Source: an uncultured Porphyromonadaceae bacterium
GTDB lineage: Bacteria > Bacteroidota > Bacteroidia > Bacteroidales > Muribaculaceae
Direction of reading: 5' to 3'
DNA length: 64,000 bases
Assembly (NCBI GenBank): GCA_947177635.1
Contig: CAMWVQ010000005.1
Span: 1 to 64,000, forward strand
Below, one piece after another: positions 14,971-42,588 of this stretch. A program made the position numbers and the translations under genes. The notes beneath the pieces are model-generated. The model had not been told where the DNA came from, made no database searches, and worked only from the letters and a program-made list of their open reading frames with translations. How positions within the stretch are numbered: the stretch's first letter is position 1; each line of letters starts with the position of its first letter.

Positions 14971-16235
14971 TGGAATTCAACCAGGAATATCTTGATTTCG
15001 TGAGGGAAAACGCCGGGGCTGACCCGGCGACACTCAGGTTGCGGCTCCACAAGGATTCCCGTCCCTGGATTCCGATGGCGATAAACAACATAGCGGCTCT
15101 GAAAAAGAGCCGTAAGTTCAGACTCGCCGAGGATGCCGACCTCACCCCGAGAGTGATTCCTCTTGAAGTCTCGGCCCAGCAGGCCACATCGGCCCGCGTC
15201 GCCCTGCTCCACGCCAACCTCGCCGGCAACGCCACCACTGTGCTTGATATGACTTTCGGGCTTGGGATGGACGCCCGCCTCCTCGCGATGGATTCCGGCA
15301 GGAGAATCATCGGCTTCGACCTCAGGGAGGAGCTGGCGGCGGCGGCCAAAGTCAACTTCGCAGACTTCCCGAATGTCGAAGTGCGCCTTGGCGACTCAGT
15401 CGCTTTCCTTGAAAATTACCGGGGAGAACCGTTCGACCTCATATTCATCGACCCGGCCCGCAGAGGCAAAGAGGGTGAACGCCTTTACAACCTACACGAC
15501 TGCCAGCCCGACCTGATAGAGATATTGCCATTGATACGGCGCAACTCACGCAGGCTGATGGCCAAGCTTTCGCCAATGCTCGATGTCTCGCAGACCCTCC
15601 GCGACCTTCCTGGAATCACCTCCCTGCATATCGTGGAGGAAGGGAACGAATGCAAGGAATTGCTCGCAATCGTGGATTTCGAGAAAGAGGCTGCTGTGCC
15701 TGAAATCGTAATCGACAGATTCGCCAGAGGGGAGTTCCGCCGGTTCTCATTCACCATACCGGAGGAGCGCGACATCCTTTCATACCCATGGCCCGGAAAC
15801 TCAGGGCGGCTGCTCGACCGTATGCCCCGCCCCGGGGAATACCTGCTTGAGCCCTCGGCCGCCACAATGAAAGCCGCCCCTTTCAACCTGCTTTCACAGC
15901 GCTTCGCCACACCGATGCTGCATCCGAACACCCATCTTTATGTATCCCCGGCCAATGGCGACGGTGCCATTCCGGCCAATGCGGAGGATTTCCCGGGCAA
16001 CACCTATCTCATCGAACAGGCCCTCCCCCTAACATCCTCCAACCTCAAGATGATAGCCCGCAATGTCGGCAAGGCAGAAATAGCAGTGCGCAACCTCAAG
16101 GGATTCACATCCGATGGGTTGCGCAAACGTCTGAAGACAAAACCGGGCGGTGACTTAAAGCTTTACGCCGTCACCATAGCCGCCGGAGGCGGTGACACCC
16201 AAGCCCTGCTCCTGGTAAGACCAACGGGCAAGTGA
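14970..16235 (+). CDS. Class I SAM-dependent methyltransferase with THUMP-like domain (PG_1098-like)
   Basis: VLDMTFGLGMDARLLA, DLIFIDPARRG; C-terminal THUMP-like part (NVGKAEIAVRNLKGFTSDGLRKRLK). Confidence 0.8.
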   Translation: MEFNQEYLDFVRENAGADPATLRLRLHKDSRPWIPMAINNIAALKKSRKFRLAEDADLTPRVIPLEVSAQQATSARVALLHANLAGNATTVLDMTFGLGMDARLLAMDSGRRIIGFDLREELAAAAKVNFADFPNVEVRLGDSVAFLENYRGEPFDLIFIDPARRGKEGERLYNLHDCQPDLIEILPLIRRNSRRLMAKLSPMLDVSQTLRDLPGITSLHIVEEGNECKELLAIVDFEKEAAVPEIVIDRFARGEFRRFSFTIPEERDILSYPWPGNSGRLLDRMPRPGEYLLEPSAATMKAAPFNLLSQRFATPMLHPNTHLYVSPANGDGAIPANAEDFPGNTYLIEQALPLTSSNLKMIARNVGKAEIAVRNLKGFTSDGLRKRLKTKPGGDLKLYAVTIAAGGGDTQALLLVRPTGK

Positions 16236-17441
16236 CGCCAGCGTGAGAGCATATTCGAGCCTGGCGGCGTTATATTCGCGGGCGGCGTCAACAAAGTAGC
16301 TTGTCTCCTGCAGGTATTCAAGCAGGGTTATTTCCCCACCCTCAAGCGCCATCTTGAGCAGACGGACATTGTTGGTGTTCTCAACCGCCGGGCCAAGCAT
16401 GGCAAGCTGACGTTCGAGCATATGCGCGCGACGGCAATCGGCATTCGCAGAGGCCACCATCTCCCGGAGCTTCATCTCATTGCCCAGCATCTCCGCCATA
16501 CCCTCAGCAGTTACCGCGTCAAGCGAAGAACCCCGCGAGAACACCGGCAAAGTCAGCCCTGCCGACAGACCGTTGAAATGCGTGCCCTCCTCATAGGCGT
16601 GGACATACCCCAATGTCAGCTTAGGGAACCGTTCCTTCGATGCGAGATTAATCTTTTCCAAGGCTACCTTCTCCCGGGCTTCCATCACACGGTACTGCGG
16701 AGAATTGCGCACCACAGGCTCCATTATCCCCTCATCCAGACTACACCCGTGGCCCGCCACAGGCAGCTGGTACATCGGATAGTCTGTCAGTGAGTCAAGC
16801 CAATCCTGCTTGATTTCGCCACCCGAGAGGGCTACAATCTCAGCCGTAAGGGCCGCGACATTTCCCTGCGCCTCATCATCTGCCGCCGAAGCCCGAGCAT
16901 GCTCGATTTTTATTTTGTTGAGGTCGAGGATGGAGACCTCACCCTTCTCCCAGGCGCGGGTGTAGGCTGCAGTCAGGGAGTCGAGATTCTCGTGGATTTC
17001 CTGGAGCATCATCAGCTCGCGGCGCGCACCGACAAGGGAGATAAGTTTCTGCTCAGCCTCATACATGGCCTCCGCCCCGACCGCCATACGCTGCGCGATG
17101 TCAAGGGAGTCGATAGCCCTGACCACACGCCGTGTGGCTCCCATCCTGCGGAAATCAGGCAGCTCCTGGCTGACGCCGGCGGACCACCGGCCTTGTTCAC
17201 CGGCCGACGATGGCCAGAGATATTCAAATTCCACTTCAGGGTCAGAAGGCACCACTTCCGCCTTCAGGCTTGATTTCTCGGCGATGAGCGACGCGCTCTC
17301 GGCTTGTCCGGCACTGATACTTGACGCAAGGCGCGAAGCGATATGCGCGAAGTCAGGTTCGGCGCCATACACCGCTCCCGTGGCGGCGATGGCCATTACT
17401 CCGGCGAAAATCAGTTTTATGCGGTCAGTCAATGAGTTCAT
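16155..17441 (-). CDS. TolC family outer-membrane efflux protein
   Basis: Heptad-rich SLTAAYTRAWEKGEVSILDLNKIKIEHA...EYLQETSYFVDAAREYNAARLEYALTLASL; start MNSLTDRIKLIFAGVMAIAATGAVYG. Confidence 0.88.
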   Translation of the reverse strand: MNSLTDRIKLIFAGVMAIAATGAVYGAEPDFAHIASRLASSISAGQAESASLIAEKSSLKAEVVPSDPEVEFEYLWPSSAGEQGRWSAGVSQELPDFRRMGATRRVVRAIDSLDIAQRMAVGAEAMYEAEQKLISLVGARRELMMLQEIHENLDSLTAAYTRAWEKGEVSILDLNKIKIEHARASAADDEAQGNVAALTAEIVALSGGEIKQDWLDSLTDYPMYQLPVAGHGCSLDEGIMEPVVRNSPQYRVMEAREKVALEKINLASKERFPKLTLGYVHAYEEGTHFNGLSAGLTLPVFSRGSSLDAVTAEGMAEMLGNEMKLREMVASANADCRRAHMLERQLAMLGPAVENTNNVRLLKMALEGGEITLLEYLQETSYFVDAAREYNAARLEYALTLASLARWSYQEQGLGVTASGGYGDGVKL

Positions 17442-20400
17442 TTTCTGTAATTTTTGTTGTTTGGACGGCAAAGTTACGATTTTTCTTCCGGTTTATGAAA
17501 CGGTAGAGTATCGGCACCACGAATATATTCAACGCCGTAGAGGAAATCAGGCCTCCGAGAATCACAATCGCGAGCGGACTCTGTATCTCGTTTCCCGGCT
17601 CATTACCCCGGAGGGCAAGCGGAATCAGGGCAAGCGCAGAGGTCAGGGCCGTCATCACGATAGGGGTAAGGCGGTCAGCCGAGCCTACCGCGATACGCTC
17701 CTCAAGCCCCATCCCCTCGTCGCGGAGATGATTGTAACGCGAGATGAGCAACATGCCGTTGCGGGTCGATATTCCCAGCAAGGATATGAAACCGATGATG
17801 GCAGGGATGTTAAGCTCCCCCCCGGTAATCACAAGAATCAGCACTCCCCCTATCATCGCCAGCGGCATGTTTATCAGTATGACGAGCGACTCGCGGAAAT
17901 CACGGAATTCACCGTACAGGAGCATCAGGATTATGGCCAGTGCCAGCAGCGAAGTAAGGGCGAGGGTGCGCGAAGCTGCCGCCTCACTCTCAAACTGCCC
18001 GCTGTAACGTATATGGTAGCCCTGGGGCATCTCCACATTGGCCGACACCTTGTCGCTGATTTCGTTGACCACCCCGCGGAGGTCGCGGCCATCCACATTG
18101 GCCGACACCACAAGGCGACGCACCGCATTCTCGCGGTTGATGGTGTTTGGCCCGCTCACCGACCTTATGTCGGCGAGATTGCCCAGCGGCACCTTCCCTT
18201 CGCGTGTGTCGACAGGCATCCGGCGCAGCCCCTCGACAGAAACATCTGCCGGGGTCTCGAATCTTACTGTCAGCGGAGCCGGGTAGCCATCCTCATACAC
18301 CTGCGACACCTGTTTCCCTGCCATGGCAACATCGACGAACTCCGAGAACCGGTTCATCGCCACCCCGTAACGGGCAAGCATCTCACGGCGCGGCACAATC
18401 TCGATCTGGGGCCGCTCAATCTGCTGTTCGATGTTCACATCAACAACACCGCCGACACCCTTGACAACTTCGCTCACCGACTGACCTATGGCGTAAAGAC
18501 GGTTGAGGTCGGCACCGAAAATCTTGATGGCAATCTGCGCCTCCGTGCCTGAAAGCATGGCGTCGATACGGTGGGAAATCGGCTGACCGATCTCAATGCT
18601 CGCCCCGGGAATCACCGAGAGCTTCTCGCGCAACTCGGCCACCATCTCGCGGCGTCCCCGACCGTCAAGCCTGTAAGGAGCCTCGATTTCCGACACATTC
18701 ACTCCGAGGGAGTGCTCGTCAAGCTCGGCACGTCCGGTCTTGCGGGCCACCGTGCTCACCTCCGGCACCGACAGGATTATCTCCTCGGCCATACGACCGA
18801 TACGGTCACTCTCCTCCAGGGATATGCCCGGTAGTGTGGAGACATTTATGGTCAGCGAGCCTTCGTTGAAGTTCGGAAGGAAGCTCCTTCCAAGATTGAA
18901 AAACAGTATCAGCGACACCACGAACAGCACGCCGACCGAACCGGTCACCATCGCCGGACGCCGCATGCACCAGGCGAGGGATTTCCCATAAGAGCGTTTC
19001 ATCGCAGCAGCCACACGGGGTTCTTTCCCCAGCGCGTCATCCTCCTTGCGGCTTCCGAGCAGGTATGAGCAAAGCACCGGAGTGAGTGTGAGGGCGACAA
19101 CGGTTGATGCCGCCAGCGCGACGATAAACGCCACCCCGAGGGGGATGAGCATGCGCCCCTCCATCCCCGACAGGAAGAAGAGGGGGAGGAAACTGGCGAT
19201 TATGATGAGGGAGGAATTGAAAATAGGCTTCCTCACCTCCTTTGACGCGTCATAGACCACCTGCACCACGCTGCGCCGCCGCGACTCGGGCAATGCCCGG
19301 TTCTCGCGCAGACGTTTGTAGACATTCTCCACATCAACAATAGCGTCATCTACCAGCGAACCGATGGCGATGGCGATGCCGCCAAGACTCATAGTGTTTA
19401 TTGTCACACCCATGGCCCGGAGGATGATTACTGATATGATTATCGACAACGGCAACGCCACAAGCGACACCAATGTCGTGCGCAGGTTCATCAGGAAGAG
19501 AAACAGGACGATTATCACCATCAATGCCCCTTCGAGCAACGAGGCCTGGAGATTGCTGATAGAGTTTGAGATGAATTCCGACTGGCGGAAGATGTCGGCA
19601 GACACGGTGACATCAGGCGGCAGGCTCTTTTTAAGTTCCTCAATCTGTCGGTCAAGCTCTTCGGTAAGCCCGATGGTGCCGGTGTCGGGCTGCTTCGTGA
19701 TTGTCAGTATCACCGACTCGCGTCCCTTGACGGAAGCGGTGCCGATACGGGGCAGCTTACCCCCGAACCTGACTGTGGCGACATCACCGAGCCTCAGGTT
19801 GCGGCCTGACTCGGAAGGGATGGCCAGGGCGGCCACCTCTTCAGGGGAGGCGGAGTTGACCGCCCCCTTGACAAGGTATTCATTGCCGTGGGCATACATC
19901 ACACTCCCCGTGGCGTTGTCGTTGCTCCCTTCAAGAGCCTCAAGCACCTCGGCGAGAGTGACACCGAGGAATTTCATCTTATCGGGGGAGAGAAGCACCT
20001 GCATCTCCCTCTCCTCACCGCCGATTACCGACACCTGCGCCACACCAGGGGTGGCAAGCAGCTGGCGCGTCACCTGACGGTCTACCATATTGCGCAGGTC
20101 AAGCACCGAAGTGGAGTCGGGTGTAAGGCCTATTATCATTATCTCCCCCAGAATGGACGACTGCGGCCCCATAACCGGTGTGCCGACCCCCGGCGGGAGG
20201 GTTTCCCCGACGGTGGCGAGACGTTCGGCCACAGTCTGACGAGCGTGGTATATGTCGGTGCCCCAGTCAAATTCCACCCACACCACCGAGAAGCCCGTGG
20301 AGCTTGACGAACGTGTGCGCCTGACCCCGTTAGAGCCTGTCATAGCGGTCTCCACCGGGAACGTCACAAGTTTCTCAACCTCCTCCGGGGCCAGGCCCGG

Positions 20401-20559
20401 GGCCTCGGTCATGACAACCACGGTCGGGGCGTTGAGGTCGGGGAATATATCAATCTCGGAGCGGGTAAGCACCACGCATCCGGCTATGGTGATAACGGCG
20501 GCAAGCACCAGTATCACCACTCTGTTGAGCAATGAGAATCTGATTATGCGGTCAAGCAT
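17425..20559 (-). CDS. CusA/CzcA-type heavy-metal efflux RND transporter
   Basis: 1044 aa; MLDRIIRFSLLNRVVILVLAAV, GGIAIAIGSLVDDAIVDVENVYKRL, ISLLGISTRNGMLLISRY. Confidence 0.95.
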   Translation of the reverse strand: MLDRIIRFSLLNRVVILVLAAVITIAGCVVLTRSEIDIFPDLNAPTVVVMTEAPGLAPEEVEKLVTFPVETAMTGSNGVRRTRSSSSTGFSVVWVEFDWGTDIYHARQTVAERLATVGETLPPGVGTPVMGPQSSILGEIMIIGLTPDSTSVLDLRNMVDRQVTRQLLATPGVAQVSVIGGEEREMQVLLSPDKMKFLGVTLAEVLEALEGSNDNATGSVMYAHGNEYLVKGAVNSASPEEVAALAIPSESGRNLRLGDVATVRFGGKLPRIGTASVKGRESVILTITKQPDTGTIGLTEELDRQIEELKKSLPPDVTVSADIFRQSEFISNSISNLQASLLEGALMVIIVLFLFLMNLRTTLVSLVALPLSIIISVIILRAMGVTINTMSLGGIAIAIGSLVDDAIVDVENVYKRLRENRALPESRRRSVVQVVYDASKEVRKPIFNSSLIIIASFLPLFFLSGMEGRMLIPLGVAFIVALAASTVVALTLTPVLCSYLLGSRKEDDALGKEPRVAAAMKRSYGKSLAWCMRRPAMVTGSVGVLFVVSLILFFNLGRSFLPNFNEGSLTINVSTLPGISLEESDRIGRMAEEIILSVPEVSTVARKTGRAELDEHSLGVNVSEIEAPYRLDGRGRREMVAELREKLSVIPGASIEIGQPISHRIDAMLSGTEAQIAIKIFGADLNRLYAIGQSVSEVVKGVGGVVDVNIEQQIERPQIEIVPRREMLARYGVAMNRFSEFVDVAMAGKQVSQVYEDGYPAPLTVRFETPADVSVEGLRRMPVDTREGKVPLGNLADIRSVSGPNTINRENAVRRLVVSANVDGRDLRGVVNEISDKVSANVEMPQGYHIRYSGQFESEAAASRTLALTSLLALAIILMLLYGEFRDFRESLVILINMPLAMIGGVLILVITGGELNIPAIIGFISLLGISTRNGMLLISRYNHLRDEGMGLEERIAVGSADRLTPIVMTALTSALALIPLALRGNEPGNEIQSPLAIVILGGLISSTALNIFVVPILYRFINRKKNRNFAVQTTKITENELID

Positions 20560-20564
20560 AAGTT

Positions 20565-20747
20565 AGTAACTGTTCAAAATTATTTTATATTAACCGGTCA
20601 TCTTATTTCAATGTTTCTTCGGCAAAATTTTTGAATCTTTTCCTCTCTTCATCAGTCGTGTAGCTCGCTACACTCCCTCTTCATAGAGAAAAATCTTCTA
20701 AAAATTTCACTCGAACAAACATTAAAATAATTTCGACCAGTTACTTA
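20565..20747. repeat. MITE/REP-like long imperfect palindrome, copy 1 (full-length form)
   Basis: Starts AGTAACTGTTCAAAATTATTTTATATTAACCGGTCATCTTATTTCAATGTTT (identical to copy 2) and ends CTCGAACAAACATTAAAATAATTTCGACCAGTTACTTA; centre GTGTAGC-TC-GCTACAC. Confidence 0.9.
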
Positions 20748-20777: not shown

Positions 20778-21959
20778 TCAATGGGAGTGGGAATGCCCTT
20801 CAGGCACCGCGCCGGATGTCTCGGCAAGCCTGACGAATGTCATACCCTTGCTGACCACCAGTTCGCCGGGCTGCAGACCGGAAATGATTTCCCGTCTCCG
20901 GCCATCAGTCTGCCCAATCGCAACGGGTCGTTTCTCATAATGCCCCGTGGCCTTCTCCACATAAACGAAATATTTGCCCTGCTGCTCGCTCACCGCCGAT
21001 TCGGCTACGGACAGGACGCCTTGGCGTGTTGAGCCGAGAAGATACACCTCACAGTATGTGCCGTTGATTACCTCCCCTTTACCTTTAGGGAGAGTGAAAT
21101 ACACCGGGATATAGCCCCCTGTGGCCGACGAGACCGAACGGGAGGAAATCATCTTCCCTCCGGAAGCGATTACATCTATGACCTCATCGGAATAGGCCGG
21201 GCGGAAACGCGCCCCGGTGATTCCCGCCAGTCGGGATGCGGAACTTTCAGGCAAATCGGCCCGCAGGGTCAGCGCATTGTTGGAGGATATGGTGGCGATA
21301 GTCTGCCCGGCATCGACAAACTGGCCGTCAACAACATCAATCGACGTTATCACCCCGCTTACAGGTGCGGTGGCCGACGTAGACGCGCCGGAAGCTGCTC
21401 CCCCCATCGCCACGCGTGTCTCCTCCACCCTCTGCAAGGCGGCGTTGTAGTCGCGGGTCGATACGATTCCCTCCTTGTGAAGCGGGGTCAGGCGGTCAAG
21501 CTCTCGTTTTGCGGCCTGATACGCCACCCTCGCCGACTCGTTGGGGTCGCCCCCGCTCATCCCACGGGCAGAGACCGTTGCGATTGACCTCCCGGCAGAG
21601 ACCGACATGCCCGCCGATATTCCGGGGGAGAGCCTGACGATTCCCCCCTGACGGGCGGCAACCGCCCCCTCCGAACCGGGCATGGCTGAAATCTCGCCGG
21701 AGACCTTCAGCGTCTCGGAAAACTCCCCGGGCCTTACGGTATCAGCCTCCACCACGAGTTTTTCAAGCTGGTGCGGCGTAAGCACAATCAGCCCCTCGTC
21801 ATCGTGGTCATCGGCTTGAGCCGGCTGGTGGTCGTGCGGTTCGTGGTCATGGCCTTCGTGGCCTGTATGGTCGGAATGGTCGCCTGAACATGCTCCAAGC
21901 ATGAACAGCAAACCCGCCGCCGGGACAATCCTGCGCAGATAACGCATCTTATTACACAT
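20778..21959 (-). CDS. Efflux RND transporter periplasmic adaptor (CusB/CzcB-like) with His-rich N- and C-termini
   Basis: CSGDHSDHTGHEGHDHEPHDHQPAQADDHDDEG; biotinyl-lipoyl-like and barrel segments; C-term VPEGHSHSH. Start MCNKMRYLRRIVPAAGLLF (21959 or 21947). Confidence 0.9.
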   Translation of the reverse strand: MCNKMRYLRRIVPAAGLLFMLGACSGDHSDHTGHEGHDHEPHDHQPAQADDHDDEGLIVLTPHQLEKLVVEADTVRPGEFSETLKVSGEISAMPGSEGAVAARQGGIVRLSPGISAGMSVSAGRSIATVSARGMSGGDPNESARVAYQAAKRELDRLTPLHKEGIVSTRDYNAALQRVEETRVAMGGAASGASTSATAPVSGVITSIDVVDGQFVDAGQTIATISSNNALTLRADLPESSASRLAGITGARFRPAYSDEVIDVIASGGKMISSRSVSSATGGYIPVYFTLPKGKGEVINGTYCEVYLLGSTRQGVLSVAESAVSEQQGKYFVYVEKATGHYEKRPVAIGQTDGRRREIISGLQPGELVVSKGMTFVRLAETSGAVPEGHSHSH

Positions 21960-22050
21960 AGACAGAAGATATATAGAAGTGGTCAGATTAATCATACCGC
22001 AAAGTTAGCGAGTATGCCCATCTCGTGGATTAAATTATTTCGGGATAAAA

Positions 22051-42454: not shown

Positions 42455-42469
42455 ATAGGGCGTGGACTT

Positions 42470-42588
42470 AAGTAACTGTTCAAAATTATTTTATATTAAC
42501 CGGTCATCTTATTTCAATGTTTGTTCGAGGAAAATCTCCTAAAAATTTTACTCGAACAAACATTAAAATAATTTCGACCAGTTACTTA
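42470..42588. repeat. MITE/REP-like long imperfect palindrome, copy 2 (centre-deleted form)
   Basis: AAGTAACTG...CAGTTACTT termini; inner arms AATGTTTGTTCGAG / CTCGAACAAACATT are a perfect 14-bp inverted repeat; flanking arms near-identical to copy 1. Confidence 0.9.

Follow-up and report, generated by a model that had tools for sequence, protein, structure and literature searches.

A MITE in the metal-efflux operon of a Muribaculaceae bacterium and a strand-polar hairpin module that it has in common with MITEs of other Bacteroidales

The stretch of DNA analyzed here (the window) consists of 64,000 nucleotides from an uncultured Porphyromonadaceae bacterium that is placed by GTDB in the Muribaculaceae (GenBank assembly GCA_947177635.1, contig CAMWVQ010000005.1), and it contains a metal-efflux operon on the minus strand. 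Upstream is the ORF of a CusB/CzcB-like efflux adaptor (20778..21995), identified from its position and from a preliminary description of the sequence, and it is followed by the ORF of a CusA-like RND efflux pump (17425..20559), which has orthologues in ten relatives of the same genus (61-90% protein identity), and by a third ORF (16155..17471) that, judging from the type of operon, probably encodes the outer-membrane efflux component. Between the adaptor and pump genes lies a 181-bp AT-rich element (20565-20745) that begins AGTAACTG and ends CAGTTACT. The preliminary description had placed a unit of ~183 bp here, extending to 20747 and separating the two genes with the pump ATG about 5 bp away. 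The element and its placement agree with the ORF coordinates, as does its AT-richness in GC-rich surroundings (68.5% AT vs 40% in 2 kb of flanks), but its proper end is at 20745 and positions 20746-20747 are the flanking TA.

The inverted termini already noticed in this element are seen at both ends, each of which reads AGTAACTGNTC, and they form a left terminal inverted repeat, AGTAACTGTTCAAAATTATTTT, at 20565..20586 on the plus strand and a right one, AGTAACTGGTCGAAATTATTTT when read on the minus strand, at 20724..20745. These ends are conserved across species (mean column identity 0.92-0.94), and there is no ORF of 80 or more amino acids inside the element. The right flank is a target-site TA (20746..20747), and the left flank (20563..20564) is TT where other copies have TA, which is probably the result of a single base change since insertion. 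The whole unit is indeed a long imperfect palindrome: the minus strand, which is the sense strand of the operon, folds best, at -66.5 kcal/mol (z = -9.75, 200 dinucleotide shuffles), and the plus strand folds at -40.7 kcal/mol (z = -7.6, dinucleotide shuffles).

A whole-genome search with the element gave 59 matches. The genome holds three complete 181-bp copies and a fourth cut by a contig end, all with the centre, about 16 short copies of 115-117 bp without it, and additionally contig-end fragments and small relics. A second family member in the window (42471..42586, plus strand) is a 116-bp short form without the tip, lacking the central 65 nt, including GTGTAGCTCGCTACAC, and flanked by TA at 42469-42470 and 42587-42588. 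Direct comparison of the two copies in the window agrees with the earlier statement that their outer left 52 nt are identical, but the last ~50 nt, said to have about one difference, have two, at positions 38 and 49 from the end. Nearly all complete copies in this genome have TA on both sides, the copy at 20565 having TT on its left and TA on its right, and TA flanks both sides of 43 of the 45 copies of types A, B, and D, a figure for which flank shuffling is no test since TA is the fixed target of these types. Two copies on contig C12 are arranged head to tail and separated by just one TA, consistent with insertion at that dinucleotide. The element also has matches in 12 of the 14 genomes of the genus, and several of the species have copies of exactly 181 bp. 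The preliminary description had proposed that copies be counted and target-site duplications sought, and had held that a genome with only two copies would speak against a MITE; many dispersed copies and flanking TA are what was found. Tiny relics consisting of the two ends only were seen at L003 (near 1480-1500) and L062 (near 1209-1241), 22 and ~33 bp in length, one of which adjoins a full copy, with one TA common to both.

The element is absent from the adaptor-pump junction in all ten orthologous operons of the genus, where the junction sequences were read and show short, unrelated spacers, the order of the two genes being otherwise the same. The ten empty junctions indicate that the insertion in this operon is recent, and they rule out a fixed regulatory part of the operon, which is the outcome of the comparison that had been suggested earlier, together with the view that conservation across distant genera as a fixed part of the operon would count against a MITE. 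A riboswitch or attenuator proper to the efflux operon would account for the position between operon genes and for the very stable fold of the sense-strand RNA. It is scarcely credible, however, given that 10 of 10 junctions lack the element, that the element is found at many unrelated sites, and that Rfam has no match above chance: at the gathering score Rfam 15 matched none of the hairpins searched, and at a relaxed threshold its only matches were one due to chance and others to hairpin families of a generic type. An apparent TPP riboswitch near L042 was likewise given no confirmation by Rfam. In one relative (G005) the orthologous spacer (L087, upstream of 1500) contains an unrelated small repeat, GCAGAGCGAAGTGAC / GCAAAGCGAAGCTAC.

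The preliminary description left the choice between a MITE and a REP-type structural element. REPs measure 20-40 bp and are tagged at one end by GTAG or CGTC (PMC3733652). A REP/BIME-type element that owed its spread to a RAYT tyrosine transposase would be palindromic, intergenic, and multi-copy, as this one is, and GTAG is present in its hairpin tip. Its length of 181 bp, constant across species, its terminal inverted repeats and its TA duplications are nevertheless far from a 20-40 bp palindrome with a tag at one end and no terminal repeats, and this origin is highly improbable. The ends, the flanking TA, the copies, the empty sites and the ends of IS630 relatives all support the other half of the earlier choice, that the element at 20565-20745 is a MITE. 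It is a full-length element of type A, and its family is new although the kind of element is known.

It had been noted that the window contains no transposase, and for the IS630 (DDE_3) type this is true of the whole genome, which yielded none in searches with the DDE_3 profile and with an IS630 protein. Such elements are found elsewhere in the same bacterial family, with ends AGTAGATGTTGAAAATTAGTTTATA / AGTAAGTCGTAAAAATTAATTTATACT beside TA and in one case the end AGTAACTAGTAGAAATTAATTTATACT, also beside TA, and in one relative (G002) an IS630-like end adjoins a DDE_3 fragment. The IS630-family elements L233, L234, L236, L238, and L239 resemble the MITE in their TA target and in ends that read AGTA followed by an AAATTA-rich stretch, but differ from it in being ~1.1 kb, in having a DDE transposase and in lacking the hairpin module described below. 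A search for a transposase sharing the termini had been recommended. Similar IS630 ends are present in relatives; an autonomous partner with exactly the ends of the MITE (AGTAACTGTTCAAAATT) was found neither in this genome nor in the relatives searched. The similar ends and the TA target suggest that the MITE was mobilized by an IS630-type enzyme. A scan for autonomous elements, with ends 0.4-3.5 kb apart and an ORF between them, returned only ordinary genes lying between separate MITEs.

The palindromic centre GTGTAGC-TC-GCTACAC, which the preliminary description had singled out, matches the stem (GTGTAGC / GCTACAC, 20658-20673) of a conserved tip (20653..20680, minus strand), and sequence comparison indicates that it belongs to a separate, strand-polar hairpin module, which goes beyond that first reading. 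The module occupies the 80 positions of a covariance model termed R1 at 20626..20705 on the minus strand, and its centre is absent from the 116-bp copies. R1 was built from 37 non-redundant hairpins, and its score here of 87.1 bits (E 3.9e-17) is partly circular since this sequence is among them. On the minus strand the tip reads 5'-GARGGAGYGUAGCGRGCUACRYGACUGA, in which the flanks, GARGGA and GACTGA in the DNA, can form two tandem G.A/A.G pairs, and both of these steps are near-invariant. In the alignment of the 37 hairpins 83% of cells are paired and two-sided changes occupy 249 cells, compared with 94 +/- 8 in shuffled and 79-114 in slid controls, where the shuffle overstates the significance because the aligned sequences are related, and the slid control is free of this fault yet favours a structure derived from the same sequences. 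The minus strand has 99 G-U cells vs 29 A-C cells, the arms show this same direction in 26 of 33 informative sequences, and the minus strand is the better-folding one in nearly all representatives, which were oriented by the tip motif and not by folding. Mean conservation among full-length copies, mostly of the genus, is 0.92 in the tip, 0.76 in the arms, and 0.92-0.94 in the ends, a set that was picked by the better-folding strand and is left out of the claim of polarity. Together the alignments point to selection on one single strand of the module, as RNA or DNA.

The module is not confined to this MITE. When one genome per species was scanned for the central motif, at least 119 stretches were found, and among the matches listed nearly all were from Bacteroidales. 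The elements that contain it and are flanked by TA have ends AGTAACTG, AGTAAGTC, AGTAGGTG, AGTGATGG and others, and those of type C have ends GG[CT]NGGTTCTAT[A/C]AATTA and a 4-bp duplication that is exact in 53 of 71 copies (6.3 expected from shuffled flanks). The R1 model found further Bacteroidales variants with yet other ends, and one set of these has a suggestive 3-bp TWA duplication (7/10 vs 4 expected). The occurrence of one module in MITEs with different ends, and with TA or 4-bp duplications, suggests that they are probably mobilized by different transposases. In a sample of the phylum, R1 matches were found in Bacteroidales only, with counts that are lower bounds, as few genomes were of that order and 11 candidates per genome were scored; the motif was present 1 to 52 times per genome in the eight genomes holding it, and the reversed control gave 0. 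As far as searches of open-licence papers, their text and Rfam show, a covarying hairpin common to MITEs with different ends is undescribed, and the tip sequence itself has no match in the text of open-licence papers.

MITEs are usually viewed as the ends recognized by a transposase plus filler. In the present elements the filler is conserved among gut and oral Bacteroidales, and its covariation has one strand sense, despite differing ends and duplication lengths. This suggests that non-autonomous elements can harbour a function exerted by RNA or by a single strand. The best explanation, to which a probability of roughly three in four is assigned, is a non-autonomous MITE that inserts at TA, is probably mobilized in trans by an IS630-type enzyme, and contains an inner single-strand hairpin module under selection. 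Its insertion at TA, between the adaptor gene and that of the pump, would postdate the divergence of this lineage from its sequenced relatives, and from its ends and its target the enzyme acting in trans was most likely a DDE transposase of the IS630 family, either lost from this genome or left out of its assembly. The module would act in single-stranded form with one polarity, RNA being the likeliest, and selection on the elements would keep it, because the same module occurs in MITEs whose ends, and probably whose transposases, differ. As the operon mRNA has the sense of the folding strand, the adaptor-pump transcript should carry a long hairpin, which would end ~30 nt before the start codon of the pump gene.

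What the module does can be approached from where it lies. Of 92 copies all but one fall outside the ORFs that were called mechanically, and among those flanked by co-directional genes 33 have the folding sense and 30 the opposite one. If it were a host-useful, cis-acting mRNA element for neighbouring genes, such as a stabiliser, processing site, or antiterminator, a strand-polar fold like that of transcribed RNA and the near absence from called ORFs would be expected; the lack of orientation bias leaves a beneficial cis effect on neighbouring mRNA unsupported, no U-run follows the hairpin, and such a role is unlikely. The form most often seen in this genome is the short one that lacks the tip, and it has still spread, showing that the module is dispensable for transposition. 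It may also be that the hairpin is functionless, the MITEs deriving from one ancestor whose ends diverged while quasi-palindrome correction kept the arms complementary, and this would agree with the spread of the short copies, with the absence of orientation bias and with the ends of types A, B, and D, which grade into one another and resemble IS630 ends. It is rather doubtful, since correction by template switching should give perfect pairs and not a G-U excess on one strand, the unpaired tip is conserved as much as the ends, and the duplication of type C differs in length. For a module under selection, there would remain an element-level role, in trans or through a host factor. A possible form of this, put forward tentatively, is that the module is selfish or functional in its own right, a structure of RNA or ssDNA recognized by a conserved Bacteroidales factor, and that several differently mobilized MITE families captured it and retained it under selection. 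The tip is a concrete motif for binding-protein tests. The sampled GC skew of the Prevotella ihumii genome was too noisy to place origin and terminus and so assess a replication-strand bias of the module. The left end of the element reads TAATTTTG outward, which we take to resemble the Bacteroidota -7 box, and inspection by eye found no -33 box at the right distance from it.

Correia elements have TA at their ends and at their target. Passages of two reports describe these Neisseria repeats (also NEMIS) as short and non-autonomous, with a long hairpin and forms of 155 and 107 bp (PMC10969869, PMC2229807), and one of them describes a copy in the gonococcal mtrCDE efflux operon where RNase III cuts the transcript and expression is affected (PMC10969869). 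The MITE is like them in being non-autonomous, in its long hairpin, TA ends, long and short forms and site in an efflux operon, and by this analogy an RNase III cut of its hairpin may uncouple the adaptor and pump genes. It differs in its covarying tip, common to MITEs with other ends; those passages on Correia elements describe none. The 107-bp RUP of Streptococcus pneumoniae is likewise a MITE at TA, with ends like those of the IS630 element thought to mobilize it (PMC2229807), but its partner, IS630-Spn1, is in the same species, while here the presumed IS630-type partner is found only in relatives and its ends are similar, not identical.

The 188-bp PINSR of the Prevotella intermedia/nigrescens group is an intergenic repeat of high copy number that PCR is reported to have detected in P. 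falsenii and P. disiens as well; the authors who described it state that terminal inverted repeats are lacking and that it is not a MITE (PMC4755523). Module-containing MITEs of ~190 bp are present in P. falsenii (L156, L186) and P. disiens (L150), and PINSR, likened here by its description as its consensus is given only in a figure, may be a MITE of the module superfamily whose terminal repeats were overlooked. MITEs with the module would account for a class of unannotated repeats, perhaps including PINSR, at which Bacteroidales assemblies break and which sit between operon genes.

Several records that contain the module are unusual. Phage and plasmid records have no similar DNA and the module is in one viral contig only, so that a phage or plasmid origin was set aside. 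A Verrucomicrobia MAG, JAJRVS (L144, L191, L200, L213), has several copies, either through spread beyond the phylum or through contamination of the bin. The module is present in the JAMPAP contigs (L163, L215), labelled Lachnoclostridium, and the titles of these and of JAMPHO (L151, L183, L193), labelled Alistipes timonensis, look wrong. In G020, an element with AGAGCTTGTTTAATAATAAATG ends (L294, ~1297-1660) has two hairpin modules in opposite orientation and several copies in the genome. The 2.7-Mb draft of an uncultured Bacteroidales (G1081, the record behind L114) has 404 type C ends, or ~200 copies, an unusual load.
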